In this document: piece after piece, positions 2,583 through 63,093 of the stretch
Layout: every line of letters begins with the position of its first letter
Numbering within the stretch: position 1 is the stretch's first letter
Source of the DNA: Prosopocoilus inquinatus
Taxonomy: Eukaryota; Arthropoda; Insecta; Coleoptera; Lucanidae
Direction: 5' to 3'
NCBI GenBank assembly: GCA_036172665.1
Contig: CM069873.1
Span: 50,219,909 to 50,283,908 of the forward strand
Length of the DNA: 64,000 nucleotides
Notes under the pieces: generated by a model
What the model saw: only the letters and a program-made list of their open reading frames with translations
What the model was told of the DNA's origin: nothing
The model's database searches: none
Program-made: the position numbers and the translations under genes

Positions 2583-3911
2583 TTAAACAAGTTTTTCTAA
2601 ACCTAATTTTAAACATATTTTCATAAATTTATCTGCTGGTAAGGCCTTGGTCATTATATCTGCAATCTGATCATGAGTGGGAATATATTGCACATTTATT
2701 ATTTTCTTTTCAACTAAATCACGTATGAAATTATACTTAACGTCTAAATGTTTCAAACGTTTATGCTCCCACTTTTGAAGCAGATGGATACATGACTGAT
2801 TATCCTCATACATTTTTAGTGAACCACTACAGTCAAAGTTAAGGTCTTGAACAAGTTGTTTCATCCAGAGAATTTCTGTAACAGCATTAGCTAAAGCTAC
2901 ATACTCTGCCTCTGTGGAGGATAAAGCCACGGTAGATTGTTTTTTAGTTCCCCAAGCAACAGAATTTCCGAACAGTTGAAGTACGTATCCAGACGTAGAT
3001 TTTCGGTCTTTGCTTCCAGCCCAGTCTGCATCAGCAAATCCCACAATGACTTCACCGGTCCCTTTATGAAAAACTAGTTGATAATCTAACGTTCCTTTTA
3101 TATACCGAAGGATCCTCTTCAGCCCTTTCCAATGCGATTCTTTTGCATCGTTCTGATACCGACTAAAATAATTTACCGCCATACAGAGGTCTGGTCTCGT
3201 TGTCTGCGTAAGGTAAGTAAGGCAACCTATTAATTCTCTATAAGGTTTGTCCTGTACGTTTGAAGTTCCACTGTCATCTTCTAGGAGTTTTGTTTCAATC
3301 GGCGTTTTAACAGCATTACATTCTTCCATGTAAAATCTTGTTAACATCCGTCGTTGGCAGGCTTCCTGACTTAGAGTCAGCTGATCTTGTTGTTTTTCAA
3401 TTTTTATTCCTAGGAATGAATAAAGTGTACCGAGATCTTTCATACAAAATCGTTGTTGTAAAGCAATCTTGACCTTATCCATTTCCAATTTGCTTTTGCT
3501 TGCTATGAGTACATCATCAACATACAGTAATAGATACAGTTGAACATCTCGGTCTTTGTGTTTATACAAACATTTATCCACCTCGGATCTAATTACGTCC
3601 AAACTTTGTACATAATTATCGAACATCTTGTTCCAGGTTCTAGGTGCCTGCTTCAGACCACAGAGGGTCTTATTTAGTTTGCACACACAATTGTCTTCAT
3701 TTATTATTGCAGGTGGTTCTTTCATGTAGATATCCTCAGACAAATCTCCATGGAGAAAGGCATTCTTGACGTCCATTTGACAAGTGTAGAGGTCATGTTT
3801 GTTTATTATTGCTAATAGAATCCGAAGAGTCGTTAAACGAGCAACAGGGGCATAAGTATCATTGTAGTCAAAACCTTTCCTTAATAGGGGCATAAGTATC
3901 ATTGTAGTCAA
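2583..3911 (-). CDS. Copia-B pol, C-terminal part: reverse transcriptase and RNase H
   Basis: The 442-residue frame continues the polyprotein after the duplication at 3846-3921. Seen: DVKNAFLHG and LCGLKQAPR (RT fingers/palm), LLYVDDVLIA (catalytic YVDD), the YLTQTTRPDL region, then RNase H with ADADWAGSKDRKSTSGY, SSTEAEYVAL and EDNQSC. Family function: copies the element RNA into DNA inside the particle. All catalytic motifs are present. As it stands it is read only if a frameshift bypasses the duplication, because the first residues are a second copy of the upstream RT segment. Confidence 0.9.
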   Translation of the reverse strand: MTTMILMPLLRKGFDYNDTYAPVARLTTLRILLAIINKHDLYTCQMDVKNAFLHGDLSEDIYMKEPPAIINEDNCVCKLNKTLCGLKQAPRTWNKMFDNYVQSLDVIRSEVDKCLYKHKDRDVQLYLLLYVDDVLIASKSKLEMDKVKIALQQRFCMKDLGTLYSFLGIKIEKQQDQLTLSQEACQRRMLTRFYMEECNAVKTPIETKLLEDDSGTSNVQDKPYRELIGCLTYLTQTTRPDLCMAVNYFSRYQNDAKESHWKGLKRILRYIKGTLDYQLVFHKGTGEVIVGFADADWAGSKDRKSTSGYVLQLFGNSVAWGTKKQSTVALSSTEAEYVALANAVTEILWMKQLVQDLNFDCSGSLKMYEDNQSCIHLLQKWEHKRLKHLDVKYNFIRDLVEKKIINVQYIPTHDQIADIMTKALPADKFMKICLKLGLEKLV

Positions 3912-3921
3912 AACCTTTCCT
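3846..3921 (-). repeat. Tandem duplication (period 40 bp) that breaks the Copia-B polyprotein
   Basis: 3846-3881 is repeated at 3886-3921, with TTAAT-type filler between the copies, so one period is 40 bp. Forty is not a multiple of three, so the reading frame shifts inside the RT. Both copies encode KGFDYNDTYAP. It could be a real replication slip or an assembly artefact. Confidence 0.9.
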
Positions 3922-6588
3922 CTGCGAACAGCCCTTCACTACTAATCTCGCCTTAAAACGCTCAATATTGTCATCTGCATCCCGTTTCACTTTAAAGACC
4001 CACTTGCAGTCAATTACTTTTCTTCCTTCTGGTAACTCACTCAACGTCCTCGTATTGTTTTCCTGTAACGAGGTAATTTCTTCTTGAACTGCACAAAGCC
4101 ATTCTTCTCTATCTTCTCTCTCTTCAATGTCTTCAAATTTCTGCGGCACATCTTCCAGAAATGTATCTGCACTCAATGCCAAGGTGGCATAGTCGTACAA
4201 GTATTTTGGTTTTGTTTTGTCTCTAGAACTTCTTCTCAGGGACAATTCTAAAGGTTCACTTTCTTCTGGTTTTTCTTCTTTTTCTTCTTCAGTTTTTCCA
4301 CGATCGTCTTCATATGATTTTTCTTCTTCGATCTGTTCTGCAACTTCCTTCTCATGTTTTTTCATGTTGAAGTTGGTTCCAAGCCAGTCGTTGTCAGTTG
4401 AATGTTCATTAATAAACTTCGTTTCATTAAATATGACATCTCTTCCCAAAATGATCCGTTGTTCTTCAGGACACCATAAACGATACCCATTGACGCAGTA
4501 CCCAACGAAATAGCATCTTTTTGACCTTGACTCAAACTTTCCTTGAATCAGTTCTTTTGGGATATGCAAATACGCAACACACCCAAATACTTTTAACTTT
4601 TTTACATCTGGTTGAATTCCAAACCATAAGGCTGCAGGTACTTCTCCATCAAGAGCATTCGTTGGACTTCTATTAATTAAATAATTGGCTGTGAGAACAG
4701 CTTCAGTCCAAAGATATTTTTCCAATTGTGATTCTTGCAACAAACAACGTGATGTCTCCAGTAAACTTCTGTTAAACCTTTCGGCTACACCATTCTGTTG
4801 CGGTGTGTAACGAATGGTACGTTCATACTGGATGCCTTTTTCTTCACAAAATTTTAACATTTCTGTAGACAAATATTCGCGACCATTGTCACAGCGAAGT
4901 CTACTAATTTTTGTTCCAAAATGAGACGTAGCCATAGCCTCATACACTTTGAAATGATGAAAAACTTCTGACTTGTTTTTCATTGCATATATAGTAGAAA
5001 AATGAGTGTTGTCATCTATGAAAGTTACTATATAATTTTTATTGTCGAACGATATTGGCGAAATAGGTCCGATTACATCACTGTGTACCAACTCTAGAGG
5101 TCTTTTTGCACGTGTTCGTGTACTTTTGTGAGGTAGTTGACTTTGTTTTCCTTGAATGCACGTTTCGCAAGGTTCCAAATCTATGTTTGTTGGCAATTTC
5201 ATTCCACTAACCTGACTTTCGAGTTTCTTTAAACTAGATAAAATTAAATGACCCATTCTTTTATGCCATAACTGTGCATTATCTTGTGCAACACATGCAT
5301 GCGATTCAGTAAAATTGAATTTAAAATTTAAAACATACAATTGTGTCTCATTCCTAACAGCAATTGCTATAATGCAATTTTTCCTTTTAATAACTGCGTG
5401 TCCATCCTTAAATGTAATTTGAAAACCATTCATTTCTAACCTTCGAACTGACAGCAGATTATATTCCAAGCCAGGAACAATCAAAACATTTTTTATTTTT
5501 ATTTGAATGTCCTTACCATTAATGTGACTCCAAACATTAACATATCCAAATTTCTTAGCAGTCAAAATTGAACCGGATTTTGCACTTTTTATTTTAATTG
5601 GTTCTTTTAATTGTTCAATTTGTTGTAGTGAAACTTTTTCACTTACCATATGTTCTGTGGCACCAGAGTCCAGAAACCAAGTTAATTTACCACTTACAGT
5701 CTCTCCACCGATAGCTGGGAAACTATAACTTTCATCTACGAACTCCGTTTTCGCTGCCACATTCACAGTTTTGAACTTTGCACCTTGTTTTTGATTTTTC
5801 TTTTTACCGTCCACTCGTTTGTGTCCAAGTTCGCCACAGTTATAACACTTAAAACGAAAAACATTTTTATCTCCGCCTCTTCCTGATTTCTGTTCAGCAG
5901 TAGAAGTCCCACGATGCAGTTTCATTGAAAAAGCAGTCGATGTCTGAGTATCGGCGCGATTTTTCCTTGTAGAATCATTACGTTTGGCTTCCTCATCCAT
6001 AAGCCGATTTTTAACAAAAGGTATAGTCACTTTATCTGTATACAATGTTTCTATTGCTGTCACAACATTGTCATACTCACTCGGCATCGTAAGTAAAAGA
6101 TGACAGACTACGTCACTCTCTTCTAAATTGACTCCGGTTGAACGCAGCTCACGTATTAGTTTGTCGAATCGTAAAAAATGAGCAGACAAAGTTTCTTTCG
6201 AGGGTATAAACTTCATCAATAAAAGCTTCTTTCGAATAAATAACTGGCTAGCAATACCTTTACGTTGAAACGTATTTATTAGTGATAACCAAATTTCAAA
6301 TGCATTTTCTTTGTCTTTTACATACTCTAAGTGACTATCAGCTACACGTTGTATTATTTGTGAGCAACATTTCCGATCTCTTTTACGCAATTTTTCAAGT
6401 TCTTTTTCTTTTTCCTTCCGAACTTCCGCTGTATCACTTTCAGCAATTTCTACTTTAGTTGTGTACGCAGTTTCCACAAAACTGAGTAAATCTAATTCAT
6501 TCAATAACGTATCGATACGAAATTTCCAGTTATCAAAGTTAGTTCCGTTGAAAAGTGGTATTTGATACTTTTCTACGCTTTCCGCCAT
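3868..6588 (-). CDS. Copia-B gag-protease-integrase and start of RT
   Basis: 906 residues. Gag occupies about 1-240 (N-terminal GTNFDNWKFR). A zinc knuckle at about 248-261 keeps CxxC and His but has Gly where the last Cys belongs. The aspartic protease active site DSGA is at about 307-310. The integrase has an HH-CC zinc domain (WHKRMGH ... CETC) and a DDE core (HSDVIGP, RCDNGREY, GVAERFNRSL), then a charged linker and the first RT block (CKWVFKVKRD, RFKARLV). The ATG follows the PBS by about 95 bp. It ends early because of the 40-bp duplication. Confidence 0.93.
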   Translation of the reverse strand: MAESVEKYQIPLFNGTNFDNWKFRIDTLLNELDLLSFVETAYTTKVEIAESDTAEVRKEKEKELEKLRKRDRKCCSQIIQRVADSHLEYVKDKENAFEIWLSLINTFQRKGIASQLFIRKKLLLMKFIPSKETLSAHFLRFDKLIRELRSTGVNLEESDVVCHLLLTMPSEYDNVVTAIETLYTDKVTIPFVKNRLMDEEAKRNDSTRKNRADTQTSTAFSMKLHRGTSTAEQKSGRGGDKNVFRFKCYNCGELGHKRVDGKKKNQKQGAKFKTVNVAAKTEFVDESYSFPAIGGETVSGKLTWFLDSGATEHMVSEKVSLQQIEQLKEPIKIKSAKSGSILTAKKFGYVNVWSHINGKDIQIKIKNVLIVPGLEYNLLSVRRLEMNGFQITFKDGHAVIKRKNCIIAIAVRNETQLYVLNFKFNFTESHACVAQDNAQLWHKRMGHLILSSLKKLESQVSGMKLPTNIDLEPCETCIQGKQSQLPHKSTRTRAKRPLELVHSDVIGPISPISFDNKNYIVTFIDDNTHFSTIYAMKNKSEVFHHFKVYEAMATSHFGTKISRLRCDNGREYLSTEMLKFCEEKGIQYERTIRYTPQQNGVAERFNRSLLETSRCLLQESQLEKYLWTEAVLTANYLINRSPTNALDGEVPAALWFGIQPDVKKLKVFGCVAYLHIPKELIQGKFESRSKRCYFVGYCVNGYRLWCPEEQRIILGRDVIFNETKFINEHSTDNDWLGTNFNMKKHEKEVAEQIEEEKSYEDDRGKTEEEKEEKPEESEPLELSLRRSSRDKTKPKYLYDYATLALSADTFLEDVPQKFEDIEEREDREEWLCAVQEEITSLQENNTRTLSELPEGRKVIDCKWVFKVKRDADDNIERFKARLVVKGCSQRKGFDYNDTYAPIKERF

Positions 6589-6667
6589 CTTCCTTTTATT
6601 TTTTTTCGGACCCTGTTTATTCCGCGGTGATTCCGTGCTGCTTTAAATTATTTCATAGAATCATACG

Positions 6668-6681
6668 CTGGGCACATAACC
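6668..6681 (-). promoter_or_regulatory. Copia-B primer-binding site (internal initiator tRNA-Met type)
   Basis: On the minus strand GGTTATGTGCCCAG directly follows the 5' LTR. It is one base different from the Drosophila copia PBS, at a different position from the Copia-A change. It is the same half-tRNA priming class as Copia-A. Confidence 0.75.
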
Positions 6682-6917
6682 TGAAGTTATTTGTGATTCG
6701 CTATAACTAAAACAAACACTTGTAACAATACCGTTTATTAACAAATAACTGTTAACAACAAACTATAATTCACCACGCTCTCATCTTACAATCGGCTAGC
6801 TCTAATACCAACTCACTTGGCGCTTGTTTCTTGTAACTAACTACGCGCAAATGTTCATTCACAAAGAACTTAAGTAAAGGTTATTTCACAATGTAGTTCA
6901 AATTGCATAACTCAACA
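6682..6917 (-). repeat. Copia-B 5' LTR
   Basis: 236 bp, the partner of 2299-2534. As the 5' LTR it should hold the promoter. I did not identify a clear TATA box in it. Confidence 0.94.
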
Positions 6918-6922
6918 AGGGG

Positions 6923-7240
6923 CATGTAATAGCCAACTGCTGGTTGAGAAAAAGGAATGGTCGAGAAACTGGTGGAAGTGTTGGTGGCACACAAGGTGGT
7001 ACGTCAAATGCTTTCACGGGTGTACTTGATATAATTAACACACCAGAGGCGTTACCTTTGTTTGAAGATGCCAAAATTGAATCCAAAGATTGGTGTTTGG
7101 ATAGCGGAGCCAGTGATCATATGAGTTATGATGAAAAACAGTTTGAATCTATAGAAAAGGTCAACGGAAGGAAGGTGAAAATAGGAGATGGTTCCTTCTT
7201 AGAGGTAAAAGGAGTCAGAAAAGTCAAATTGCAGGCATGA
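6923..7240 (+). pseudogene. Copia-A gag end and protease
   Basis: This resumes the Copia-A gag directly after Copia-B. The His and final Cys of the interrupted zinc knuckle appear in the first residues. The aspartic protease site DSGAS lies near 7107. An in-frame TGA at 7238-7240 ends it; the same frame continues to the integrase, so this is a simple nonsense change. Confidence 0.88.
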
Positions 7241-8632
7241 AGTGGCGTAGATTGGATAGACACAGAATTGAGCCAGGTGCTGTATGTTCCTCAGTTAAAA
7301 ATAAACCTTTTCTCAGTTGGGAAAGTGTTGGACAGAGATCTGGTTATGAAGTCGGACCGAGGCAAGTGTCAAATTTTTGACAAGTATGGACAAGTTAGAG
7401 CAGTCGCAGAAAGGCAAGGTAAACTATTTAAAATGATCTTTAAAAAAGAAAATTCTGGTTATGCTGACGTAGTAGAGAGTATACTAGATTGGCATAATAA
7501 AATGGCACATGTCAATTTACAACAAGTGAGATCAATACTAAGGCAAAACAACATTGTTTTCACCGAAGTTGATAATGTATTGTGTAAAGCGTGTCTTTCT
7601 GGAAAACAGCACAAATTACCTTTTGAAAATAGTAGTAGTAGAGCTTGTAAAACAAATGAATTGATTCATGCTGATTTATGTGGACCTTTTGAGGTTGAGT
7701 CTCTTGGAGGTTCTAAATATTTTCTGTTGTTGAAAGACGATTACTCTGGTTTTAGAATGGGTTACTTTCTAAAGCATAAAGATGAAACCAAGTTGCAGAT
7801 AGTTAATTTTTTGAAAATGTCAGAAAATCAAACTGGAAATAAAGTCAAAGTTTTTAGATCGGACAATGGACTGGAATTTGCAAATAAAGACATAAAATTA
7901 TTGCTGGATAAAAACGGTATAAAGCATGAAAGGACATGTGTTTACACGCCCCAGCAAAATGGGCGAGCAGAGAGAGAAAATCGAACAATTGTAGAAGCTG
8001 TAAGAACATTACTCCATAAAAGTGGATTACCCAAGAGTTTATGGGCAGAAACTGTTAACACAGTGGTCTATGTACTCAACAGAGTAAGAAAGTGTCCTGT
8101 AAAGAATAAAACATCCTTGGAACTCTGGAATGAAAGAAAGTTTAATTTAAATTACTTAAAGCAATTTGGATCAGAAATATCCGTTCATATTCCTAAAGAA
8201 AAACGAACAAAATTAGATGCAAAGAATGAAATTGGAATATTTGTAGGATACAGTGAAACAGTTAAATGGTATAGGGTGTGTTATCCAGATAAAAATAAAA
8301 TTGAAATACACCGAGATGTTGTATTTATTCCTCAAGGAAGCCACGTTAAACTGAAAGATACAGAAGATGTTGTGATTTTAGACATAAAAAATAAGTTAAC
8401 TGAAACCGAGTATCACGAGGAAGAAAACATTCCTGAAAATGTAGATTCTGTGGATCCAAAAGAACAGGAAGAGGCAGAGGCCAAAAATGAAGCAACAGTT
8501 CAGGAAACTGAAAGTGAGACAGCTGGTGAAGAGCAGAGCGAGACAGCTAGTGAAGAGCAGAGTGAACCTGGAAAAGAAGACGAACAGGTGTCAAGAGATA
8601 GAAAAGGCAGACCATTGAAGAGGCCAGGTTGA
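7241..8632 (+). pseudogene. Copia-A integrase
   Basis: Same frame as the protease. Seen: LYVPQLKINLFSVG (end of protease), WHNKMAH with CKAC (HHCC zinc domain), HADLCGPF (D), RSDNGLEF (D), GRAERENRTI (E), then YETVKWYRV-type C-terminal region and a long Glu-rich linker. The catalytic triad is intact, but flanking stops at 7238 and 8630 (TGA) mean it cannot be made from one polyprotein. The linker has a short SETAxEEQ repeat near 8515-8565. Confidence 0.9.
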
Positions 8633-9205
8633 ATGGACGACTATGGTATGACGGACACTAGCTTTCTCTCGTTGGAAGAGCCAACATCATTGGAAGAGGC
8701 CATGACTAGTGACTGTGCAGAAAAATGGAAAGAAGCGATCCAGAAAGAGTTAAGTATTTTGAAGAAAAATAGTGCGTGGTGTGAAGTGCCATGGCCTGTA
8801 AATAAAAAAGTGATTGAAAGCAAATGGGTATTTAAAATAAAAGGTAATGGTGAATATAAAGCACGTCTTGTTGCTCGTGGTTTTCAGCAAAAGTGTACTA
8901 GTATTTATGATATATATTCGCCTGTTGCAAAAATGAGTACGTTTAGAGTTTTCTTGATTGTTGCAAATAAATTGGGATTACAAGTTTTTCAAATGGATGT
9001 AAAAGGGGCATTCTTATATGGGGAAATCGATGAAGAAGTGTATATGTCTTTACCAGGAGTTAATAAAGAAAACAGTACATCCGTTTGTAAACTAAATAAG
9101 TCAATATATGGCTTAAAGAAATCCCCAAAAGGTTGGAATTGCAGATTTGATAGGCTTATGGTAGAATTAGATTTTAAAAGATCAGAAAATGATTTACCAA
9201 AGTAA
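8633..9205 (+). pseudogene. Copia-A reverse transcriptase, core deleted
   Basis: Same frame as the integrase after the TGA at 8630. RT fingers and early palm are present: ESKWVFKIKG, RLVARGFQQ, VFQMDVKGAFLYG, IYGLKKSPKGWN. The protein should next reach YVDD, but the sequence jumps from SEND to SKYLLQVL (thumb), so roughly 80 codons including the catalytic aspartates are missing. RT activity is therefore impossible. The frame after the deletion is shifted. Confidence 0.9.
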
Positions 9206-9893
9206 ATATCTGCTGCAAGTTTTGGAAAATTTTGGGATGTCAAATTGCAAACCAGTAAACACACCAACTGACAGTAACTTTGATTTCAATCTTGTTAAAG
9301 GTGCAAGTTGTCAGAATAGGGATAAGAAATATGAAAAGCTATGTAGACAAATCATCGGTTGTTTGATGTATGTAGTTCTAGGTACAAGACCCGATTTATG
9401 CCATAGTGTGACAATGTTAAGTCGTTTTCTTGAAAAGGCATCACTGGAATTGTATGTAGCATTAAAAAGGGTCTTACGTTATGTTAAGGGATCTTTATCT
9501 TTAAAACTAAGGTTTGAAACAAAGAGTGATAAAGTCTTATTAGGTTTTGTAGACTCAGATTGGGGAGGAGATGTAAATGATAGAAAGTCTACTATAGGTT
9601 TTGTTTTTAAAATGTTTGATTGTCCAGTATCTTGGACTAGTAAAAAGCAACAAACGGTTTCCATCTCCTCTACTGAATCTGAGTATATAGCTCTGTCTGT
9701 AGCAGTAACCGAGGCTTGTTGGTTGAGAAAACTACTAAGTGATTTTTCTTTTGACTTAAAAGAGCCAATATATATTTTCAAAGATAATCAATCAGCGATA
9801 AAGATAGCTTATAATCCTGAAAACCATAGACGTTTAAAACATTTGCCAAAAGCTAAATTGTTTAAATTTAGGGAGCAAGTCAATTTAGTTTAA
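9206..9893 (+). pseudogene. Copia-A RT connection and RNase H domain
   Basis: Continues in another frame after the deletion. Seen: IGCLMYVVLGTRPDL, then RNase H blocks VDSDWGGDVNDRKST, SSTESEYIAL and KDNQSAI, ending RLKHLPKAKLFKFREQ close to the normal Copia C-terminus. RNase H looks intact but has no functional RT upstream. Confidence 0.88.
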
Positions 9894-14026: not shown

Positions 14027-14462
14027 AAGGTCATGACCTTGAGGTGACCTTGAAATGACCTCGAGGTGACCTTGAAATGACCTTGAGGTGACTTTGAGAT
14101 GACCTTGAAATGACCTTGAGGTGACCTTGAAATGACCTTGAAATGACCTTGAGGTGACCTTGAAATGACCTCGAGATGACCTTGAGGTGACCTTGAAATG
14201 ACCTTGTAGTGACCTTGAAATGACCTTGTAGTGACCTTGAAATGGCCTTGAGGTGACCTTGAAATGACCTTGAGGTGACCTTGAAATGACCTCGAGGTGA
14301 CCTTGAGGTGACCTTGAAATGACCTCGAGGTGACCTTGAGGTGACCTTGAAATGACCTCGAGGTGACCTTGAAATGACCTTGAGGTGACCTTGAAATGAC
14401 CTCGAGGTGACCTTGAAATGACCGTGAGGTGACCTTGGGGTGACCTTGAGGCGACCTTGAAA
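14027..14462. repeat. 11-bp minisatellite (GACCTTGAGGT / GACCTTGAAAT)
   Basis: About 39 tandem units of 11 bp, mostly alternating GACCTTGAGGT and GACCTTGAAAT with scattered changes. Almost every junction creates TGACCTTGA, the reverse complement of TCAAGGTCA. It starts with the palindrome AAGGTCATGACCTT. It lies directly inside the left terminal hairpin. The long open minus-strand frame here is a by-product of the repeat lacking stops. Confidence 0.93.
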
Positions 14463-14558
14463 TCACTGAGGTGACCTCGTAACGGACCTTGAAGCGCGGT
14501 GACTCAAATGTAATTGTTTTGAAATAACCCTGACGCAACCTGTTATTGAATATGTACC

Positions 14559-15153: not shown

Positions 15154-16022
15154 TCATAATGTTCTGAAATACATAGCCATACCCGTCTTTTCAACTTTAT
15201 TGTTTTCCTCAATTGTATTTGCATCAGCTTCTTCACTTTCTACTTCGACTATTACGTTTTTTTCCAATCTCTGTGTTTTCTTTTTATGACTACTTGGTAT
15301 TTCATCAACTTCAACTTCTACTCCCTCAAGTACTTGTGCAATACTTCCTGTTTCGTGTTTTGTCTGTGTTTTCAACGATCGTTTTTGTTTTCCCTTCTGA
15401 ATTTCCTTATTTTTCTTCTCAGCTACTGCTCTTTTCGAAATTTTTTCTAGTTTTCGTTTCTGTATCTTCTCTTCTTTGACTACTTTCTTTTGTTCTTGCT
15501 CTTTATGATATTCCACCCACTTATTCGACGTAATTGCGAATGGCATTTGTATATGAGAGTTGCGTTTTCTCTTTTTCAATTCGTCTTCTTGTTTTGGCCA
15601 ATGTAGGTGTTTCTCCCACAGTTTATTTACATCATTTTCACGTTTATCATTTACAATAATATTTGATATAATATTGATTCTCTTTTTATTGCATTCAGTT
15701 TCTAAAATTCTGTTCTCAACAATATCAAAAACCTTATCAACAATTATTTCTAGAAGTTCGGTGCACACAAGTTGTCTCTCAATGTCACAAGTCATGTCAG
15801 AGTTATCGTCAGCAGTAAACGGATTATTTTCTACTGTCAAAATTTCCGAAACAGGTTCATATACAATTCCGTCAATTTCCATAGGTAAATCATTTATGAA
15901 GGTGTCGGTGAAAAGTTCTGAATTTTCGGCATTAGTATCTAATACAGGAGCTAGGTTATTAGTTTCAATAAGTGTATTTTGTTCTCCTAAATTACTTTTA
16001 CAGAATTTCCAAAATAAGTATA
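15154..16022 (-). pseudogene. pogo transposase, C-terminal part
   Basis: This continues the transposase reading after the insertion. It contains an acidic stretch, WEKHLHWP, MPFAITSNKWVEYHKEQEQ, and a Lys-rich tail (KKRKRN, RKLEKISKR) that looks like nuclear-localisation signals, then an acidic end. The W..HL.WP...ITS.KW pattern is typical of the tail after the DDE domain in pogo/Tigger-like proteins. It is read with the upstream exon only if the insertion is removed. Confidence 0.75.
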
Positions 16023-16035
16023 TGTTGTTATTAAC
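16023..16035. other. 13-bp target-site duplication of the ribozyme insertion (left copy)
   Basis: TGTTGTTATTAAC at 16023-16035 is repeated at 16739-16751. Variable 10-15-bp duplications indicate target-primed reverse transcription rather than a DDE transposase. Taking out one copy plus the insert rejoins the pogo transposase. Confidence 0.88.
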
Positions 16036-16075
16036 AAAAATTTTGTGCAAATTGTTTTTGATTGCAGCGAGAACC

Positions 16076-16140
16076 TCGAGCAGCCTCTGGACAGCTGTTT
16101 CAGCCCTGCTTGGGGCTTCTTCAGCAGAGACGTAGCTCGA
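16076..16140 (-). ncRNA. Hammerhead ribozyme, type I, copy 1
   Basis: Minus strand, 5' to 3': outer stem I TCGAGC (16140-16135); inner stem I CTCTG (16129-16125); core CTGAAGA (16124-16118; U7 is a free position); stem II AGCCC, loop CAAGCA, GGGCT (16117-16102); core GAAA (16101-16098); tiny stem III around ACAGCTGT; cleavage triplet GTC (16092-16090); then CAGAG (16089-16085) and GCTCGA (16081-16076) closing stem I. Every conserved core base and all three stems are present. The cut is predicted between 16090 and 16089. Small palindromic stem III is typical of Penelope/retrozyme hammerheads, which act best as dimers. Confidence 0.88.
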
Positions 16141-16386
16141 CATTCCCGCTGCAAACAAAAACGACTTGCCCAATTTATTCGCATTTGCGATGTAAGAGTG
16201 ATGAACAGATAAAATAGCGACATCTTACTATCGCTTTTTGACCTGACATTGCAGTAGGGTGGACAAATTGAAGCGGGATTTGCTTCTAATAAGTTCCCCA
16301 TGCAAGGCGGCCATGCTTGCTGTCAAAGCATAATGAAAGATTTTAGAAAAATTTTGTGCAAATTGTTTTTGATTGCAGCGAGAACC

Positions 16387-16451
16387 TCGAGCAGCCTCTG
16401 GACAGCTGTTTCAGCCCTGCTTGGGGCTTCTTCAGCAGAGACGTAGCTCGA
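16387..16451 (-). ncRNA. Hammerhead ribozyme, type I, copy 2
   Basis: Same sequence as copy 1, 311 bp further on. The predicted cut lies between 16401 and 16400. Transcription from right to left across both copies would release a 311-nt unit with 2',3'-cyclic phosphate and 5'-OH ends, ready for ligation into a circle. Confidence 0.88.
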
Positions 16452-16751
16452 CATTCCCGCTGCAAACAAAAACGACTTGCCCAATTTATTCGCATTTGCG
16501 ATGTAAGAGTGATGAACAGATAAAATAGCGACATCTTACTATCGCTTTTTGACCTGACATTGCAGTAGGGTGGACAAATTGAAGCGGGATTTGCTTCTAA
16601 TAAAATCTTTCATTATGCTTTGACAGCAAGCATGGCCGCCTTGCATGGGGAACTTATTAGAAGCAAATCCCGCTTCAATTTGTCCACCCTACTGCAATGT
16701 CAGGTCAAAAAGCGATAGTAAGATGTCGCTATTTTATCTGTTGTTATTAAC

Positions 16752-18071
16752 GTTTTCTAAGTCATTATTGATAAATTCATCTTTGCCAAAATAATATTCC
16801 ATTACTTTTAGACACGATTTATAATCTTGAGTTGTTATTTCATTCATAGGTTCTTTTTGAAAAATTTCATTTCGTCTTGTGGATATACACTTGGAGAAGT
16901 CGACTGCGTCTGGATTTAATGGATAAAGCCCGCAAACTCTGAAACCGTTTATGATAGTATTTGGTTTGCAAGCTCTATCAAAAGCTTCTTTGAATAGAGG
17001 ACTGAAATTATGTCGCGTAATTGATGTAGATGTACGCTGTTTGTGCATTCTACAAACTGTTTTCCATTCTGATTTTAGAGGCCGAAAAATGCTGACATCG
17101 CAAGGCTGCAATATGTGTGTTGCATTTGGGTACAAACAGTAAAGGATAATTTTTTTCTCCACACAGAATTCATATAGTTCTAGATTGTAATGTGATTTAT
17201 GACCGTCTATAAAAAGGATGACTGGAAATGTAATACTCTTTTGGATGAGCCAAGGATAAAATAAATTTGCTACGTATTCAAAAAAAGTAGCGCTAGTCAT
17301 CCACCCAGAATCTGATCTTCCAATACCCCATCCTTCTGGTACAGAAAGACATAATTCTTTGGGAATCCTTTTATACGGAAAGACGATCATTGGCGGGACT
17401 GCAGAGCCATTTGCTGCATAATTGCAAAGGACGGTGATGGACTCTTTTTCGCTTCCACCTGCAATTTCATATAAATTTTTGAAGTTTTTTGACGGACGTA
17501 GGACCAAACTCGATTTCATGGAGGTTTTTACCCCTGTTTCATCAGCATTGAAAATACGAGAAGGATCAGTCATTATGTCTGACAAATTTTCGCTCTCCAA
17601 ATAGTTGGTCAATTCCAGAAACCATTGACGAATTGCCACTTCAGTGACAGAAGCACGAGATTTTGAAATGATTTCTGTATTTCGCTTAGAAATCTCGGGG
17701 TACCTTTGCATAAATAGTTTTAACCATTTATCTCCCGGTCGGTCATCGTTGAATTTATTTGGCCTAGGCGCACTTTTAAACACTCCTTGAACGGCGTCTT
17801 TAACTTCGTCCGAGTGCATTGGAAATCCCAATTTAGCTTTTGCCAAGATCCAGTTTGCCAATCTTTGTTCCTCTACATGCGTTAAGACGGGAGAAGGGCC
17901 CATCTTTCTCACATTTGGTACTTTCGCAGTTAATTTGTTATGCAAAGTAGATTTAGGGATCCCATATTTGGAAGACGCTTTGCTTAAAGTTATTATTCCA
18001 GCATTAATTTGGTTTAATGCTGTGGCCAATGTTTCTTCCGTGTAATTAAAGCGCGAGTATTTTTTATTCAT
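16752..18071 (-). pseudogene. pogo transposase, N-terminal HTH and DDE catalytic part
   Basis: Start chosen at 18071 (MNKKYSRFNYTEE), as the upstream extension enters the subterminal repeats. An N-terminal Psq-type HTH (about 10-55, YGIPKSTLHNKL) is followed by a CENP-B-like HTH region (RLANWILAKAKLGFP), then a DDE_1 domain with D177 (FNADETG), D289 (FIDGHKSH) and D325 (LQPCDVSIF), a DD35D spacing. It cuts at TA and pastes in the nucleus. The coding sequence is open up to the ribozyme insertion; the rest is at 15154-16022. Two inverted CCAGTAAATGAACA sites flank the region just upstream of the ATG. Confidence 0.85.
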
Positions 18072-18753
18072 CTGAAAAATAAGTATGCCTAGTTCACCAG
18101 TAAATGAACACCAATGAATAAACACTGTTCATTTACTGGCTTGCTCGCGTATATGATGAAATATTGTAATAGGAAATATTCGGTACTAATACAGCAAACA
18201 TTTAAAGTTGAATTTACCTTATTTCTCGTTTCTGCGCCAAATCCAGTAAATGAACACGCTGTTCATTCATTAGATTTTACGAAAATTTTCGAACCAGTAA
18301 TTGAACGCCTTTATATTTATTGAAACTATGTCGTTTGCATCACTTATTTAATTAAATATATTAAAGTCATGATTGTATTGATATATTATAAGAACAATTT
18401 GCAATTATTTTGAAAAATGTGAATATTACAAAACATATTCAGAGCACATGTCCTTACCTTAATACTATAATAAAATGACGTCGGAAGCAACTGGTGTCAA
18501 CATGTCTGCACAAGACCGATTTCATTGGTAGACAAAACACATTTGTAGTCTTGACAGTAAATAAGTAATATCGAAGAAATATTCATGCGTCATTAGAACA
18601 AGAGAAAGATACGGCTTTACTTAAGCTTTCCTTGTTTTTCACAAAAATATACGTCTCTGTTCATTCACTGGGTTGTGTTCACTTACTGGTCGACTGACCC
18701 TACCAACTTATTGAACGTAGTGAACGTGATAGTGCTTATTAAAATTATAAAAC

Positions 18754-45421: not shown

Positions 45422-46240
45422 GTACGTAACCATGTAAACACAATTCCTTTTTAGTTAATACCTTTTTGTTCTGTTTTTTGTGTTTTTGTTTGTTTTTGAG
45501 TAATTCTGTAATTCATTATTTTTGTAGTTAGTATATTCTCTGTAAATTCATCCAAACGGTAACACAACTTCCCCCTAACGGATTTAAGTTTTTTTTTTCG
45601 GACGTTACATGTACGAGATTCTGAAAAATTTGAATATTTTAGTACTGATGGTTGCCACTTTGGCTGATTGGCGCCACTATAGCGTATATTTGATATATAT
45701 ATTTTGCTCTTATTCCACGGTTGATGTGGCATCTTCTCCAATGGCAACGTTTCATCTTTTTAAATCGTAGTCTTCGTTTTTGGGTGAGTGCTCATACGCC
45801 TTGTTTGTACGGTAAGTACTATTTAATAAAGTAGTTATTAAGCTAGGATTATTATTACTATTAGTTATTTCAATAAAGTTAATTAAAAAGGATATTGTCA
45901 CCGGCAATACGTCATATTTAGAGAAGGTTAAAAAAGGTTATTTAATTCAGTTTGATCGCTTGAACATGTTGAATTAATTTAATGGAAATTCAAACGATTC
46001 ATTGCATGCAGAATTCAAATATGCTTCTCATTAAATTGAAAAACTAACGCGTTATAAAAAATATTTTCCAGTTTTCAAATTGATTAACGTAATAATTAAA
46101 AGGGAGGAAACAATTCGAGTTATATGTTTATACCGTTTCTGTTCAATGATAAAATTTATATTAAATGTTCAGGGATCTTGAAATCAAATCAACTGCATCC
46201 TGAATAGAACATGTTTCAAACGTCTAAAACTTTATTTTAT
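45422..46240. other. Unassigned AT-rich sequence
   Basis: No gene or repeat recognised on either strand apart from simple T-rich runs. Confidence 0.4.
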
Positions 46241-46780
46241 TAGAGGCCTTGCCACTAACATATTTTGCGGGTGGCTTCTAGGGAGCAACTGAAAAGACAA
46301 TTCGGGCCCGAATTCGTTTTATCGGCATTGGGGGCAGCGCGGTACAGGGTGACTTTTTCATTAGAGATCCTGCCATTTATATATTTTTCAGGTGGTTTCT
46401 GGGAAGCAACTGAAAAGACAATCCGGGCTCGAATTCGTTTTATCGGCGTTTGGAGCGGCGCGGTACAGGGCAAGTTATTCATTAGAGATCATGCTGCTTA
46501 CATATTTTGTAGGTGTCTTCTAGGGAGCAACTGAAAAAATAATTTGGACCCGAATTCGTTTTGTCGGCGTTGGGGGCGGCGCGGTACAGGGAACTTTTTT
46601 TATCAGAGATCCTGCCACTTACATATTTGTGCCCGAATTTTATTTTAAGTTGCTTTTTAGAAGCTACCTGAAAAATATTTACACAATTTGCAGGATCTCT
46701 AATAAAAAAGTTATCCGGTACCGCGCCGCCCCCAACGTCGATAAAACGAATTCGAGCCCGGATTACCTTTTAAGTTGCTG
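46241..46780. repeat. 121-bp tandem repeat (three copies) followed by an inverted copy
   Basis: Units start at 46241, 46362 and 46483 and share TAGAG..CCTGCCA, GGAGCAACTGAAAA, CCGAATTCGTTTTATCGGCGTT and CGCGGTACAGGG phrases (diverged by roughly 10-15 percent). A partial fourth is followed by a reverse-complement copy at about 46662-46780. The GC-rich core stands out from its AT-rich surroundings. No coding capacity. I looked for a hammerhead core on both strands and did not find one. Confidence 0.85.
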
Positions 46781-55761: not shown

Positions 55762-58190
55762 ATGGACGCTGAAAAATTGATTGAAATCGTGCGAAAGTAT
55801 CCGGAATTATATGATTTATCAAGTGCGAAATATAGTGACAACGCTCACAAAGACAGTTTATGGAGAAAAATTGGTGAAGATTTGGGTGAGTCAGGTAAGA
55901 TACGACGAACTTAAAATATTTTTATTTAGCTACTAGAAACAAATTGCACAATTTTAAAATCAGTTTTCTAAATACACCGTGTCCTGTCCCAATGTCACCA
56001 CTTCACCCACATTATATTCAACTCAAATTGAGTAAAAAAGTCTAATAAAAATTTTTTCTCTAAAGTAAACAATTTCAGAGTTCACCTAATCATTCTCTGT
56101 TCACCTAATAATAAATTCAAATTAAAAAAAAAAAACTAATTGAGTAAACCGTTTTTCAAGAATACGACGTATTTTTTTTTAATTATCCAAAAAATTTAAA
56201 TAAAATTTTATCTATCAGCATTGTTAGTGTGTTTTCAAAAACGAAAATTACAAATTACAAAACACGTCAGATTCTTGAAAAAGGTTTGCTTTAATAGTTT
56301 TTTCTTTTAATTTGAATTGATTATTAGGTGAACGGAGAATGATTTGGTGAACTTTGAAATTTTAAAAATACTTGAACATTTAACACCCAGTATTTCTGTA
56401 ACGGTTTACTTTAGAAGAAAAATTTATTATAGTTTTTTACGTGAACTGATAATCACGTGGGTGAAGTGGTGATATTACACCGCGGACATCCGGTATACGA
56501 TTAAACAACATTTTCTTGCCACTCTACACGACCATTTGCAGACATGAAAAATGCTTTGAATGCCTCGCGGATGTGAAACGCCGCACCTTCTGCACTTCCC
56601 CCTTGTCTTCTAATATTTACTAAATTGTGTTGCTCCAGATTAGGTTGTGGGTCGGGTTGATCTTTGATAAAATTGTGTAGAACACAATTCGTTAAAATAA
56701 TTATATCAGCATTTTTTGGGTCCAATTTTAGTCTTCTGTTATAGAGTCGAAATTTTTGGGCCAGTATTCCAAAGGCATTTTCAGACACCCTTCTAGCACG
56801 CGAATGTCTATAATTGTAAACTTGTTTGTCCACATCTCCGTTTATCTGGGATCCTGGATATGGCCTTAATAAGTACGTTTTTAAAGGGAAAGCCTCATCT
56901 CCCACGATGACGTAAGGCATTACATCATTCGTTCCCGGAAGGGGTCTATCATCAGGAACATTTAACTGTCGTTTTTCCAGCGCTTTTCCCAATTTTGAAT
57001 TGGCAAAAATACCGCCATCGCTGTTTCTGCCACGAGATCCGATGTCTACAGCAATGAATTTATATTGTGCATCAACTAAGGCCATTAATACAACAGAAAA
57101 TGTCTTTTTATAATTAAAGTATTCAGAGCCACTATTATGTGGGGCTTCGATAATGACGTGTTTCCCATCCAGTGCCCCTAAACAGTTTGGAAAGTTCCAA
57201 GTGTTCCAAAATTCAGATGCAATACTTTTCCAATCATTCTCTGTAGGCATTGGCATTGTTTCTTCTTGCATTTTGTTATTTATCGCTTGACATACTTCCA
57301 CTACTATTTTCTGTACGGTACTATCTCCAAGACGGTAACTAGAGGCTATAGTTGTGTAAGCATCCCCGGTGGCTAAGAATCTGTAAAGATATGAAATTTT
57401 AGTTAACTGATAGTTAATGCTTAATCAGGACCGCTGCAAACGGTCAAAACTGTTTTAACAATATTGTAATGCCCATTGTTTGGTGCAGGGAACAACTGCA
57501 AAAAGAAATGGATAAATTTACGAGATTCCTTTAGGAGGTCTCTTAAGAAGAAAAAGGACACGAAAAGCGGACAGGCTGCCACGAAAATTAGAAAATGGGC
57601 ATACGAAGAAGAAATGTCATTTTTAATTCCGTTTTTCCAAGACAGGCCAACAGTGACCAATATCGATGTGGGAGGTGATACAGAAGATAGCTTGGGTACC
57701 GATCAACAAGATAAGGCCGATCAAACTGAAGCCACGGCGCAAAATTCTGACAGACTGGAAAGACCACGAATCATGTCAAAGAGTAGCACTTGTTTTAAGT
57801 CTAATCAACGGAAATCCACCGGTAAAGGAACTGCAGCCCCAACTGCATCTGCAGAACTTATGAAATATATTTTGAAAGAAAAGGAAGAAGAAAAAAGTCA
57901 AAAGCCAAACCAAAACCGTTAAAACATTTAGTGCCATAAATCAAAATGTTATTAAATCTAAAATTTTTGCACTTGTTTCCGCGTGTGAATTGAAAGAAAT
58001 TCAAACCAAGCAGACCACCCTTATTGAACAATCGGTACAGCCTTCAGCTTTTAGCCAATCTAATCAATTTAATTACCCCTGTAACTACAATATATCCCCC
58101 GCACCACATCATCAACCATTCTCGCCAGGTCAGCAGTCATCTTCATCATATTTTGGGCAATATTCTCCCGAGGATCAAGGTGGAAATTAA
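55762..58190 (+). pseudogene. Harbinger-3 MADF-domain protein, two exons, late frameshift
   Basis: Exon 1 55762-55894 (MDAEKLIEIVRKYPELYD) and exon 2 from 57489 join by GT-AG to give GESGNNCKKKWINLRDSFRRSLKKK, a complete MADF fold (Myb/SANT-like DNA-binding). The frame stops at 57922 after 188 residues. A one-base shift near 57900 lets it continue FALVSACELKEIQTKQTTL and a Gln/Ser/Pro-rich tail to 58190, as in MADF proteins with a C-terminal BESS-like helix. So the tail is probably frameshifted. The 1.6-kb intron contains transposase exon 2 on the other strand. Confidence 0.8.
55995..56472. mobile_element. Foldback MITE inside Harbinger-3
   Basis: The two halves are reverse complements over most of their length: outer 16 bp TCACCACTTCACCCAC (55995-56010 / 56457-56472), inner TTCACCTAATAAT and CAAATTAAAAnAAAAAACTA stretches. 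About 478 bp. It lies between MADF exon 1 and the transposase stop, in the MADF intron. Confidence 0.75.
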
Positions 58191-58763
58191 CTTTAGTGTG
58201 AAGATTTTCGTGTTAGAAATTATAATAATACCTATGTGTACTATATTTTAACGTAATAAATAGGCCTGTTCCTTTTACCAGAATTTCAAGTTCTGAACTG
58301 TCTAAATCATGCGCAGTGACGAAATTGTATCTAAATTCCTGCAGTGCGGTTGCTTAGTATGGATTTGAACGGTTCAAAATTTGAAATTCTGGTAGAAGGA
58401 ACGAACCTATTACCTTACTTTAACTTTACTTGTAACTTTTAATAAAACTTACCTTAAGCATACAGCAAGTTTTTCTTTTGGGGATATGGCTTCTCGAAAT
58501 GTGGTGTTTTGTTTCTTTATATCATATTCAATGTTTGTTAAGAGATAATTAAACTGATAAGTAGACATTCTAAAATATCGGTAAAATTTTGTTTCGTCAT
58601 CCACCAACTGTCTACATAATGTATAAAACTCTCCTTCTTCTTTCCTTGTTTTTAGAGTGCTGTGAATCCATACACGTCGTTTTCTTTTCTTCTTTGCGTC
58701 ATCTTCATCAAGTAATATAGCAATTAACGCCAGATCTTTCTTTTCAAAATTTCGAAACATCAC
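56501..58763 (-). CDS. Harbinger-3 DDE transposase, two exons, intact
   Basis: Exon 1 58763-58453 and exon 2 57380-56501 (GT-AG) give 1191 nt, 396 residues. Exon 1 is an N-terminal helical domain (RKRRVWIHSTLKTR, FYRYFRMSTYQFNYLL) and runs to AVCL; exon 2 resumes RFLATGDAYTTIASSYRLGDSTV, then ALDGKHV (Asp 1), GSRGRNSDGGIF (Asp 2), RARRVSENAFGIL (Glu) and a normal C-terminus. It cuts and pastes the element. The intron holds MADF exon 2 (plus strand) and a small MITE. Confidence 0.92.
58263..58407. mobile_element. 145-bp MITE with TA target, inside Harbinger-3
   Basis: Inverted ends beginning GGYYCGTTCCTTYTACC and continuing AGAATTTCAA (left 58263 on, right 58407 back), flanked by TA (58261-58262, 58408-58409). 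Tc1/mariner-type. It lies between MADF exon 2 and transposase exon 1. Confidence 0.82.
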
Positions 58764-58888
58764 TTAAAACGTGCCACTACGCTGAGGTCTGTCTGATGTG
58801 TGCCTGATAATGTATACGGTCCGTATTTTTCATGTCGTGTCTGTTACGCTACGTGTCGTGTCGTTATCTTATAATGTAAATCATCCTT

Positions 58889-60375
58889 CACACGTTTTGC
58901 TGTGCATGTATGTACTACTGTTCTCGCAGTTGTTTATATACGGTAAAATCAAAAGTACAACTCAATTTAACACCGTTATTTTGTTTTCAGAGGCCTCGCG
59001 TGTGCAATTAATTTTATATTTTATTTTACACTTAAGAATAAGTTTTTTTTTTTTAGTTATAAATAAAATATGGCGTTTAAGTTTTAGTTTTGTATAGCGG
59101 GGTTGTACAATATTTTAGTAGTTTTTGGCCGTTTTCTTAAAAGTATAGTATAGAAGGGCTGAGGTTTGAACGAAATTTTTGCTTTTATTTTGAACATTTA
59201 TGGGGTAGCATATCTTTGAACTCGATGAGGAAGGCTGATGATACAAGTTTTGCCCTGGGGAGGTACACAGAGGACGGCGTATTGTAGACTCCTTTCAGCA
59301 TAAGAAGAACATGATGACTCATCGAAATCTGACCGGAGGGGTACGAACAGCTGATGAGCAGTGGCATACAGATTTCCATGTGAAGTGTAGGGACAGGAAA
59401 ATAAATAAAAATATATTTTTGTATATTAAATGCAGCATATTTAAGCAATATAAATAATAATCATTATTGTGGACAGTATCAATAACATGCCGAACGTTGT
59501 TTATCAGACTACTATATATTTGTTTTCGAGCGAGAATGTTTCCAACATTAAATTTTTAAGTAAATATTTGACTTTAATAAATGAAGAGTTGCGAATTAAA
59601 TGAGGTGTACTATTAAAAAAAAAAAATTGTCATAGTTTTTTCTAACAATTATTAATTTACAAAATATTATAATTAATTACACCTAATATTCACACACAAG
59701 CATTGTTGTTTAATAGTGGTGAAGAACTACAATTTCGATGTTCTCGGTTAATAGCGTTCACCATCTTCTTTATCGAAAAGCAAATAATCTTCGTCATTCA
59801 AATCACCTGTGTCGACCGTGAAGGTAAGATTGTCGGTGGGATTAACAACTTTTCGATAGCTTTTGTCACTGATCTTAGTAGCCGTTAGCAGTCTTAGATT
59901 TCATTACAGGAATTGTTATACAATATTCAGCTTCGTCTTTCGTGAATTCCAGCACATTAGCAGTGATTTCAGGTGCCTGGCTGTGAATTATTTATCCCTG
60001 TTCGCCGATCGTTTTCTTTTTGTCCATGATAATATATTGTTGCCATTAAATAACAGTACCAGACTCACAACTGCAAATTTCAGAAAACAATATTTTCAGA
60101 ATTGTCAGGAAATAATTGAAAATAATTTCTCACCTCTAACAAGTAGGAATAAACAATTTGCTGTGAGGAGAACACTAATTTGAAAACATAACAATTAAAA
60201 CCACAACAAAGGAACACAAGAAATGTGCAAGAAACCTAACCACTAACGCTAAATCTGGGGGCAGCTGGAGGTAACTACTGTCACTGCGTATGCCGCGCTC
60301 CTGGACTCCGAACTCGCCTAAATTTTAAAAGTAGACTTGTCGCACAAAAACTCGTCTCTGCGCATTATGTACTTC
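58889..60375. other. Unassigned sequence between two Harbingers
   Basis: About 1.5 kb, AT-rich, no gene recognised on either strand. Confidence 0.45.
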
Positions 60376-60519
60376 TTAAGGCCGCTACACACGGACGTTG
60401 ATGTCTTAATACATCTACGTGCATTCATTAACGCGCGAACAATAACGTGCATTCGATTTGTCTACAGACGCACGAACATAATCCATAGTTTCTTGGTCTA
60501 GCTGCTGGGATTTCGCAAA

Positions 60520-62517: not shown

Positions 62518-63093
62518 GTGCTATTATTGTTAGTTTCCAAGTTTGTGTATTATTAGCCTTTTTTATGAATCATTAAAAAGTCAATAATTATATAGTTACA
62601 TGTGTTTTATTCTTCGGAATTTTCACAAAAATTACTATATTTACTGATTACTTACCTGTTCCTCACTCTCAATCGGTACATCATCAGCTTCTTCCTGAGA
62701 GTGTTCTTCAAAATCATCCTCTTCATCAGTTTGAATATTTGAAGTAGACGCTCTTGGTGTTTCTTGGTCCTTAACAAATAGCAGTAGTTCATAATACCAT
62801 AATGAAGGTACGTAAATATCATCTGATCCAGAACTACTTTTTCGTGAATTTTGCACCTTTTTATATTCTCTTCTAAAACCGCCACGCAGGGTGTTAATTT
62901 TATTTATAACAGTATTTTTTGTAGCATCAGGTTGAACAGTTTGTAACTTTTTCATCAATATTTTATATGCCTCATTTTTTTTATTTCTATCCAAATATTC
63001 TTTTGATTTGGTTTGCCAGAGACAAGTGTGTGCCCTGTACAATTCAACAAATTCCCTGATAAAATTACGTGAAAATGTTCTCACGTCAGACAT
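61119..63093 (-). CDS. Harbinger-4 MADF-domain DNA-binding protein, two exons, intact
   Basis: Exon 1 63093-62656 and exon 2 61670-61119 give 329 residues, phase 0 at both GT-AG borders. The MADF domain is at about 10-105 (FIREFVELYRAHTCLWQ, VINKINTLRGGFRREYKKV, VPSLWYYELLLFV); then an acidic stretch and a C-terminal region with a basic patch (REGPRKRKTPSQ), a helix (NIAHKLRRLPRETKLYTEKLINDILFQAELG) and an Asn/Ser-rich end. Likely binds the element ends and delivers the transposase. The intron (61671-62655) contains transposase exon 2. Confidence 0.92.

Follow-up and report, generated by a model that had tools for sequence, protein, structure and literature searches.

The insertion at 16036-16738 of the window (the whole stretch of 64,000 nucleotides of Prosopocoilus inquinatus DNA that was analysed) is, judged from its architecture, probably a metazoan non-LTR retrozyme. 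It would travel in the form of a 311-nt RNA circle, with an enzyme of the type of Penelope-like elements (PLEs) as its mover, priming on both strands of a staggered break. The inverted piece that closes the insertion, accident-like at first sight, is its informative part: the two arms end at two different fixed positions, one each, and a PLE of the same genome follows the same end rule.

The features of the insertion and of the interrupted gene are listed in Table 1. Unit positions are numbered U1-U311 on the minus-strand unit (U = 16347 minus the window coordinate). The tandem repeat was detected by TRF (period 311, 1.8 copies, at 16036-16603), and its partial second unit (16347-16603) was 100% identical to the full unit over 257 nt. 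The inverted copy (16601-16742, 142 nt) was 100% complementary to 16204-16345; it overlaps the A-arm by 3 nt at the junction (16601-16603) and runs 4 nt into the duplication. The direct repeats offset by 311 bp, the inverted copy behind them and the 13-bp target duplication (TGTTGTTATTAAC at 16023-16035 and 16739-16751) had been described in the first-pass annotation, and all three were recovered. No PLE open reading frame (ORF) lies inside the insertion, whose unit is 311 nt long, and no LTR arrangement was seen in its repeat layout.

Table 1. Features of the retrozyme insertion and of the transposase that it interrupts (window coordinates)
Feature	Position	Strand	Remarks
Target-site duplication, left copy (TGTTGTTATTAAC)	16023..16035	.	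Five empty paralogous sites
Target-site duplication, right copy (TGTTGTTATTAAC, then GTT)	16739..16751	.	
A-arm	16036..16603	-	Complete 311-nt unit (16036-16346), then a unit truncated at its 5' side (16347-16603); sense on minus; its outer 3' end is site A (U311)
B-arm	16601..16742	+	Inverted head-to-head piece, unit positions 2-143, sense on plus; its outer 3' end is site B
Type I hammerhead ribozyme 1	16071..16142	-	Unit positions 205-276; core CUGAAGA, start 16124
Type I hammerhead ribozyme 2	16382..16453	-	Core start 16435
Pogo/Tigger-like transposase frame, 3' part	15154..16035	-	Open across the joined empty site
Pogo/Tigger-like transposase frame, 5' part	16752..18125	-	HTH_psq, DDE_1

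For the reconstruction of the empty site, the flanks were joined with a single copy of the duplication (300 bp). The joined sequence matched end to end at five other places of the genome; all five matches were printed at 100% identity, one of them scoring slightly lower. These five uninterrupted target copies prove the insertion, and the transposase frame is uninterrupted once the flanks are joined in this way. Among its named relatives the beetle Rhamnusium comes first, ahead of bean weevils and further insects; one bracovirus record is also included, with an ORF42 that is 52% identical over 90% of the interrupted transposase (16737-18125). Elsewhere, at C4:22145238-22148361, the pogo-type transposon is present in two pieces that overlap by 15 bases (query 161-175), and a GIY-YIG hit lies within it at C4:22145669; a PLE has likely inserted into this copy.

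The window contains further repeats and mobile elements, as follows: Ty1/copia-type ORFs on both strands (2583-9893; the ORF tested, 2586-3911, matches RVT_2), a 22/33-bp tandem array of TGACCTTGAAATGACCTTGAGG with about 21 copies (14034-14492), a tandem repeat of 121 bp with 3.3 copies (46235-46628), and a DDE_Tnp_4 transposase (56504-57301) with similar-looking ORFs nearby (56501-63093). By reading of the ORFs, a Polinton/Maverick-like gene set occupies 19853-41387, with a double jelly-roll domain (PF21738, 339 bits), an rve integrase, ATPase-like and protease-like ORFs, and a large ORF that resembles a protein-primed polymerase (sub-threshold Pfam hit only).

For the detection of hammerhead ribozymes, a strict descriptor was used: CTGANGA, stem II of at least 4 bp, GAAA, stem III of at least 2 bp, a loop of 3-6, and stem I of at least 5 bp. 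Exactly two sites were found in the 64-kb window, both on the minus strand with core starts at 16124 and 16435, and 300 first-order Markov windows searched on both strands gave 0 matches. In unit coordinates the core starts from U223 and the predicted cut follows U257 (between 16090 and 16089 in ribozyme 1, between 16401 and 16400 in ribozyme 2). Both the presence of two minus-strand type I hammerheads and the cleavage site 16090/16089 agree with the first-pass annotation. Its word 'perfect' holds for the core and the three stems, which are intact, but not for the Rfam score, which stays below gathering, nor for the monomer fold, which is disfavoured in prediction.

A covariance-model search had been named as the check on these ribozymes, with the lack of a hit counting against them, and at the Rfam gathering thresholds the insertion indeed had no match. 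When the list was extended to E <= 10, RF02275 was the sole hammerhead family in it (16.3 bits, against a gathering score of 52) and RF00163 was absent. The best Rfam rows, MIR4245 and MIR396 (E about 1e-5), were also below gathering and were rejected as fold-back artefacts because they span the head-to-head junction. Among the descriptor matches in the fetched loci, 99/108 were identical over the ribozyme; copies without the paired stems, which had also been named as counter-evidence, are thus not the norm. We judged the failed Rfam check to be outweighed by the descriptor control and by these identical ribozymes.

Fold prediction was applied to single molecules and to pairs. The hammerhead fold of a single molecule (-19.5 kcal/mol) is predicted to lie about 11 kcal/mol above an inactive hairpin in which the core is sequestered (-30.6). 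When two copies were cofolded, stems I and II were restored in the prediction, together with an 8-bp intermolecular stem III formed by the palindromic sequence ACAGCUGU (-65.1, against 2 x -30.6). Nascent multimers may be cut more readily than finished circles. The hammerhead-like motif of the PLE described below was predicted to cofold alike (-33.9, against 2 x -11.6). A variant hammerhead (CTGATGA, GUA cleavage triplet, stem II kept through a wobble pair) was seen at L073:237. Genome-wide, RF00163 was over its cut-off at at least 7 places among the 74 of 83,220 candidates that were scored (e.g. C4:54091586-54091631), and the 35-mer core had 0 exact matches in IMG/VR.

The family is young, mobile and present in many copies. 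A 35-base core, allowing up to 3 mismatches, occurred 9,086 + 9,126 = 18,212 times in the 649.6-Mb assembly (reversed-pattern control: 0), and a DNA search with the unit gave at least 159 matches, 40 of 1,375 candidates being scored; the full-length matches among those listed were 98-100% identical to the window unit. The mobile family that had been suggested at first pass is borne out by these occurrences and by the empty site at five places. For the study of insertion structure, 33 clusters were fetched from the match list and combined with the window (34 loci). Structure was disregarded in the choice; the sampled insertions are the closest relatives of the window unit, and older copies are under-represented. 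The sampled arms measured about 520 nt on average.

In 29/34 loci the arms meet 5'-to-5' with their sense 3' ends outward, and the insertion has one A end and one B end. The A ends of these 29 loci lie at U311 or at most about 7 nt beyond it, the B ends at U140-154 in 29/29 (U140-148 in 27/29). The A end is the left one in 18 loci and the right one in 11, and no B/B insertion occurs among the 34 loci. Under random and independent choice of A or B by the arms, the probability of 29/29 would be about 2e-9, the five other loci being ignored. A further, unselected copy (L043:2006-2456) also carries one B end, one A end and a duplication. For the 100 exact cores listed on contig 1, neighbours within 1 kb were oriented '-+' 19 times, '--' 5 times, '++' 3 times and '+-' 0 times.

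The five loci outside the rule are as follows: L017 prints as A/A and is nested among older units; L028 also prints as A/A and is a perfect palindrome with flanks of at least 990 bp on each side and 0 mismatches (C6:43468046-43470657), either an assembly artefact or a very recent large palindrome, and assembly-like in appearance; L020 and L029 consist of a single arm, and a duplication was not found; L040 has an odd left end and is not clearly A/B. Within the 29, L019 is A/B by its outer ends, yet has more than two arm segments between them.

The inner ends of the arms are scattered round the unit, in unequal pairs in most insertions (U55/U2 in the window, U193/U89 in L009, U134/U180 in L024) and nearly equal in a few (U281/U281 in L030, U214/U209 in L015, U249/U244 in L033). 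All A-arms (29/29) cross the hammerhead cut site, and the inner ends do not cluster at U257/258; the template was therefore not an RNA cut there.

The length of the target-site duplication, taken as that of the longest string common to the two flanks, was as follows for the 29 A/B loci: 12 bp in 15, 13 bp in 9, 14 bp in 3, 15 bp in 1 and 8 bp in 1 (12-13 bp in 24/29; 12-15 bp in 28/29). The bases after the duplication are most often G (13), then T (26), then T (17), and those before it A (19), A (21) and C (16), n = 29 for each. The A and T excess is in part local AT-richness, and G and C are the telling bases. From these flanks the target looks symmetric, AAC[N12]GTT-like, which would suit a pair of equivalent subunits that each cut one strand ahead of GTT and leave 3' overhangs as primers for both arms. 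At the junction between the arms (n = 29), the overlap is 2 nt in 12, 1 nt in 4, 3 nt in 2, 4 nt in 1 and 9-35 nt in seven, and three have filler or complex joins. Zero-overlap junctions number 0/29, where blunt joining would give roughly half (an estimate, not computed).

The units of an insertion were compared at five variable sites. Insertions with at least two covered units were counted, using matches of at least 60 nt and at least 93% identity; excluded were L028 and, in L022, an older insertion beside the sampled one. Units were uniform within insertions at site 20 in 31/31, site 62 in 31/32, site 86 in 32/32, site 181 in 27/27 and site 294 in 30/30. Where both arms were covered, the counts were 26/26, 27/28, 28/28, 22/22 and 25/25, respectively. 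The observed uniformity was reached in 0 of 5000 permutation trials at each of the five sites. The sole exception (L036 at site 62) adjoins a deletion, and at sites 20 and 181 the minor allele was confined to L039 (8/8 and 9/9 units). Site 307, in an A/T run near site A, was left out of the five-site test: its variant was present in 4/4 units of L031, whereas L010, L019 and L033 had it in one unit each. In L019, 2/9 units carried a deletion at position 8, and existing arrays often hold variants private to one unit. Units that largely agree across both arms are as expected if one circular monomer had been copied repeatedly, and we infer from this a 311-nt circular RNA.

For the PLEs of the same genome, a PF01541 profile search was used (150 scored hits of 2,232 candidates, most sharing one identical score). 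A PLE frame from this common-score class encodes 787 aa with RVT_1 and GIY-YIG. Its named relatives come from mosquitoes and beetles, and the highest identities (Tribolium 51%, Molorchus 49%) cover a part of the protein. Together with the relatives of the interrupted transposase, they make an insect host likely and a beetle plausible, although mobile elements are poor guides to the species. In the list of 150 GIY-YIG hits, neighbours no more than 10 kb apart were '-+' 47 times, '--' once and '+-' 0 times. When 20 '-+' pairs were fetched, picked by short spacing and not by their ends, 20/20 had one tailless (A) and one tailed (B) end: an end near ...CTATTTATTT on one arm is paired with an end about 37 nt farther along on the other. 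The duplications of these 20 pairs measure 11-16 bp, a range that overlaps that of the retrozyme; the target motif is weaker and somewhat different. Among variants from the common sequence, 13 were shared by both arms and 8 were on one arm (19 pairs, without L081), and one segregating site was split in L070. The hammerhead-like motif lies about 48 nt before PLE site A (read by eye), against 54 nt in the retrozyme.

A second PLE family with a different GIY-YIG domain (L044, L046, L047, L052) was searched by coordinates only, 40 of 212 candidates being scored. Its 3' ends fall into two classes (about query 754 and 767-782); three pairs could be formed, of which two are A/B, while in the third both arms seem to end at 754. 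A hammerhead-like motif is present in L044 and L052.

The insertion had first been classed as 'retrozyme or Penelope terminal repeat'. The first half of this statement holds: the hammerhead repeats are tandem, of type I and within the published size range, the duplications are long, the copy number is high and the units are uniform. The second half was rejected: the insertion has no PLE ORF, and the similarity of the 3' 600 nt of the PLE to the retrozyme unit is at chance level (best E 0.23). The link of the retrozyme to PLEs is the insertion architecture, which is invisible from a single copy. The mover proposed here is a PLE-type enzyme and is not claimed to be that of the PLE examined; it may belong to another PLE.

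Metazoan non-LTR retrozymes are described as tandem 150-450 bp type I hammerhead repeats with longer target duplications, and PLEs are named a strong candidate mover (PMC7229834; Cervera and de la Pena 2020); the published grounds are co-occurrence, tandem copies and shared hammerheads. The present family resembles them in its 311-bp tandem unit (within 150-450 bp), type I hammerhead, long duplications (8-15 bp in the 29 A/B loci, where more than 4 bp is characteristic), many copies and co-resident PLEs. It differs from the tandem copies described in PMC7229834 by head-to-head arms with two fixed 3' ends in 29/34 loci, by largely uniform units across both arms, by a symmetric target and by short copies instead of long arrays. 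Plant LTR retrozymes (PMC4918200) have type III hammerheads, LTRs and 4-bp duplications; they share with the present family its non-autonomous, hammerhead-bearing nature and, as far as it can be deduced here, an RNA-circle life cycle, unlike the type I layout and the duplications of 12-13 bp (24/29) seen here. Amphibian hammerheads with a very short palindromic stem III cut much better as dimers (PMC7229834). The short stem III, the palindromic tetraloop and the predicted preference for the dimer are alike in the present ribozyme, whereas the sequence and the dispersed two-armed insertions are different. This parallel is uncertain because coral and mussel retrozyme hammerheads cut well as monomers (PMC7229834).

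Penelope/Poseidon-type PLEs share with the retrozyme the head-to-head arms, an optional 3' tail on one repeat and a hammerhead in the repeat, as well as AT-rich targets and, as proposed here, cutting and extension of both strands and two RT start sites, which are adjacent in the PLEs; the arrangement of a tailless and a tailed 3' end on head-to-head arms was found in 29/34 retrozyme loci. The retrozyme differs in lacking an ORF with RT and GIY-YIG, the PLE of the genome being a separate element, and in its 'tail' (A to B) of about 143 nt versus 30-40. Arms that share source variants, a comparison introduced in this analysis, are found in the retrozyme, with exceptions at sites 307 and 8. Head-to-head pLTRs with an optional tail on one of them have been reported, with self-priming as the suggested origin (PMC3846280). 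The Anolis PLE enzyme cuts and extends both strands, is predicted to dimerise, and starts at two adjacent internal sites, which define the tail (PMC11167929). In the same in vitro work no strand difference in the start site was seen and the hammerhead was not needed; this result counts against the retrozyme model. In the passages of PMC7761336 and PMC4918200 that were consulted, the word 'inverted' occurs once each, on other matters. No report of a one-A-one-B rule for retrozymes was found in the literature searched, most subscription papers and preprints being outside it. The novelty is the insertion rule and its link to PLE integration, not the ribozyme.

The proposed reaction would proceed as follows: a tandem array would be transcribed, and the hammerheads would cut the transcript to 311-nt monomers, perhaps best when neighbours pair via the palindromic stem III. 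A host ligase would close the monomer into a circle. A Penelope-type RT/GIY-YIG enzyme, probably as a dimer, would cut both strands of the symmetric target and leave 12-nt 3' overhangs. Both overhangs would then serve as primers for reverse transcription of this one RNA, starting at site A (unit 311) on one strand and at site B (about 143) on the other, and each copy would run round the circle for a variable distance. Finally, the cDNA ends would be joined 5'-to-5', mostly through about 2 nt of microhomology, and filling in would produce the 12-13 bp duplications.

A wider reading seems plausible to us, although we stop short of favouring it. Penelope-type integration would be a paired reaction, with a dimeric enzyme, a symmetric 12-nt staggered cut, a single RNA circle and two strand-assigned start sites, so that every insertion would carry exactly one end of each kind. 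Retrozymes, as minimal parasites in the form of circular RNA, would have kept only the two start signals and a dimer-favoured hammerhead, which would cut nascent multimers and spare the finished circle. The dimer part of this reading is weakened because published invertebrate hammerheads cut well as monomers.

Four other origins were weighed. An uncut, linear multimer transcript of an array, and not a circle, could have been copied from internal sites by the same type of enzyme. This would suit the Anolis PLE, of which hammerhead mutants still insert in vitro with unprocessed RNA as the dominant substrate (PMC11167929). Since arrays are largely uniform, their transcripts would be so too, and a few variants (sites 8 and 307) do occur in only some units. 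We nevertheless regard it as unlikely: private single-unit variants are common in arrays, yet the five tested sites are almost never mixed within an element, and the frequent source arrays of one or two units could not yield the L039 arms of 1316 and 1490 nt. The smaller probability that we allow to LINE twin priming makes it a poor candidate. In this scheme the 3' end of the RNA is the first priming site of an L1-like enzyme, and priming of the second strand at a random internal position gives a 5' inversion; LINE insertions are likewise known to have inverted 5' pieces, duplications of a similar kind and microhomology at the inversion point. LINEs are also left open as movers of animal retrozymes in PMC7229834. 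Twin priming was rejected on the fixed site B, which varies little in any of the A/B loci where a variable position is expected; moreover, a poly(A) tail was not seen at the printed retrozyme ends, and the PLE of the genome shows the same two-end rule.

Very little probability is given to fold-back self-priming, in which a single cDNA (or antisense transcript) serves as its own primer after folding back and so yields a head-to-head repeat, as proposed for the inverted PLE repeats of rotifers with palindromic junctions (PMC3846280). The nearly equal inner ends of L030, L015 and L033 would suit it, but the inner ends differ between the arms in most insertions, on which ground it was rejected; overlaps are 1-4 nt in 19/29, and one A plus one B end is not predicted. 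A DNA transposon, foldback element or satellite array that merely contains hammerhead sequences is the least probable of all, barely worth considering, in spite of inverted repeats, target duplications, tandem units and foldback-like head-to-head arms. The outer ends are different, fixed parts of the unit and so make no matching terminal inverted repeats, the centre is variable, and units are largely uniform within insertions and different between them; empty sites with a duplication fit insertion and not satellite growth. These elements were rejected on the different fixed ends, the uniform units and the empty sites.

Movement of the retrozyme as an RNA circle by a PLE-type enzyme is the reading that we retain. 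The one-A-one-B signature, shared in one genome by a non-coding hammerhead element and a PLE, is a structural link between the two, and it bears on two questions: which enzyme moves animal retrozymes, and how PLEs finish their insertion. The link gives exact predictions on start positions, strand assignment and target. With thousands of hammerhead copies, the sampled ones nearly identical, the genome of this beetle is a clean natural record of the reaction.
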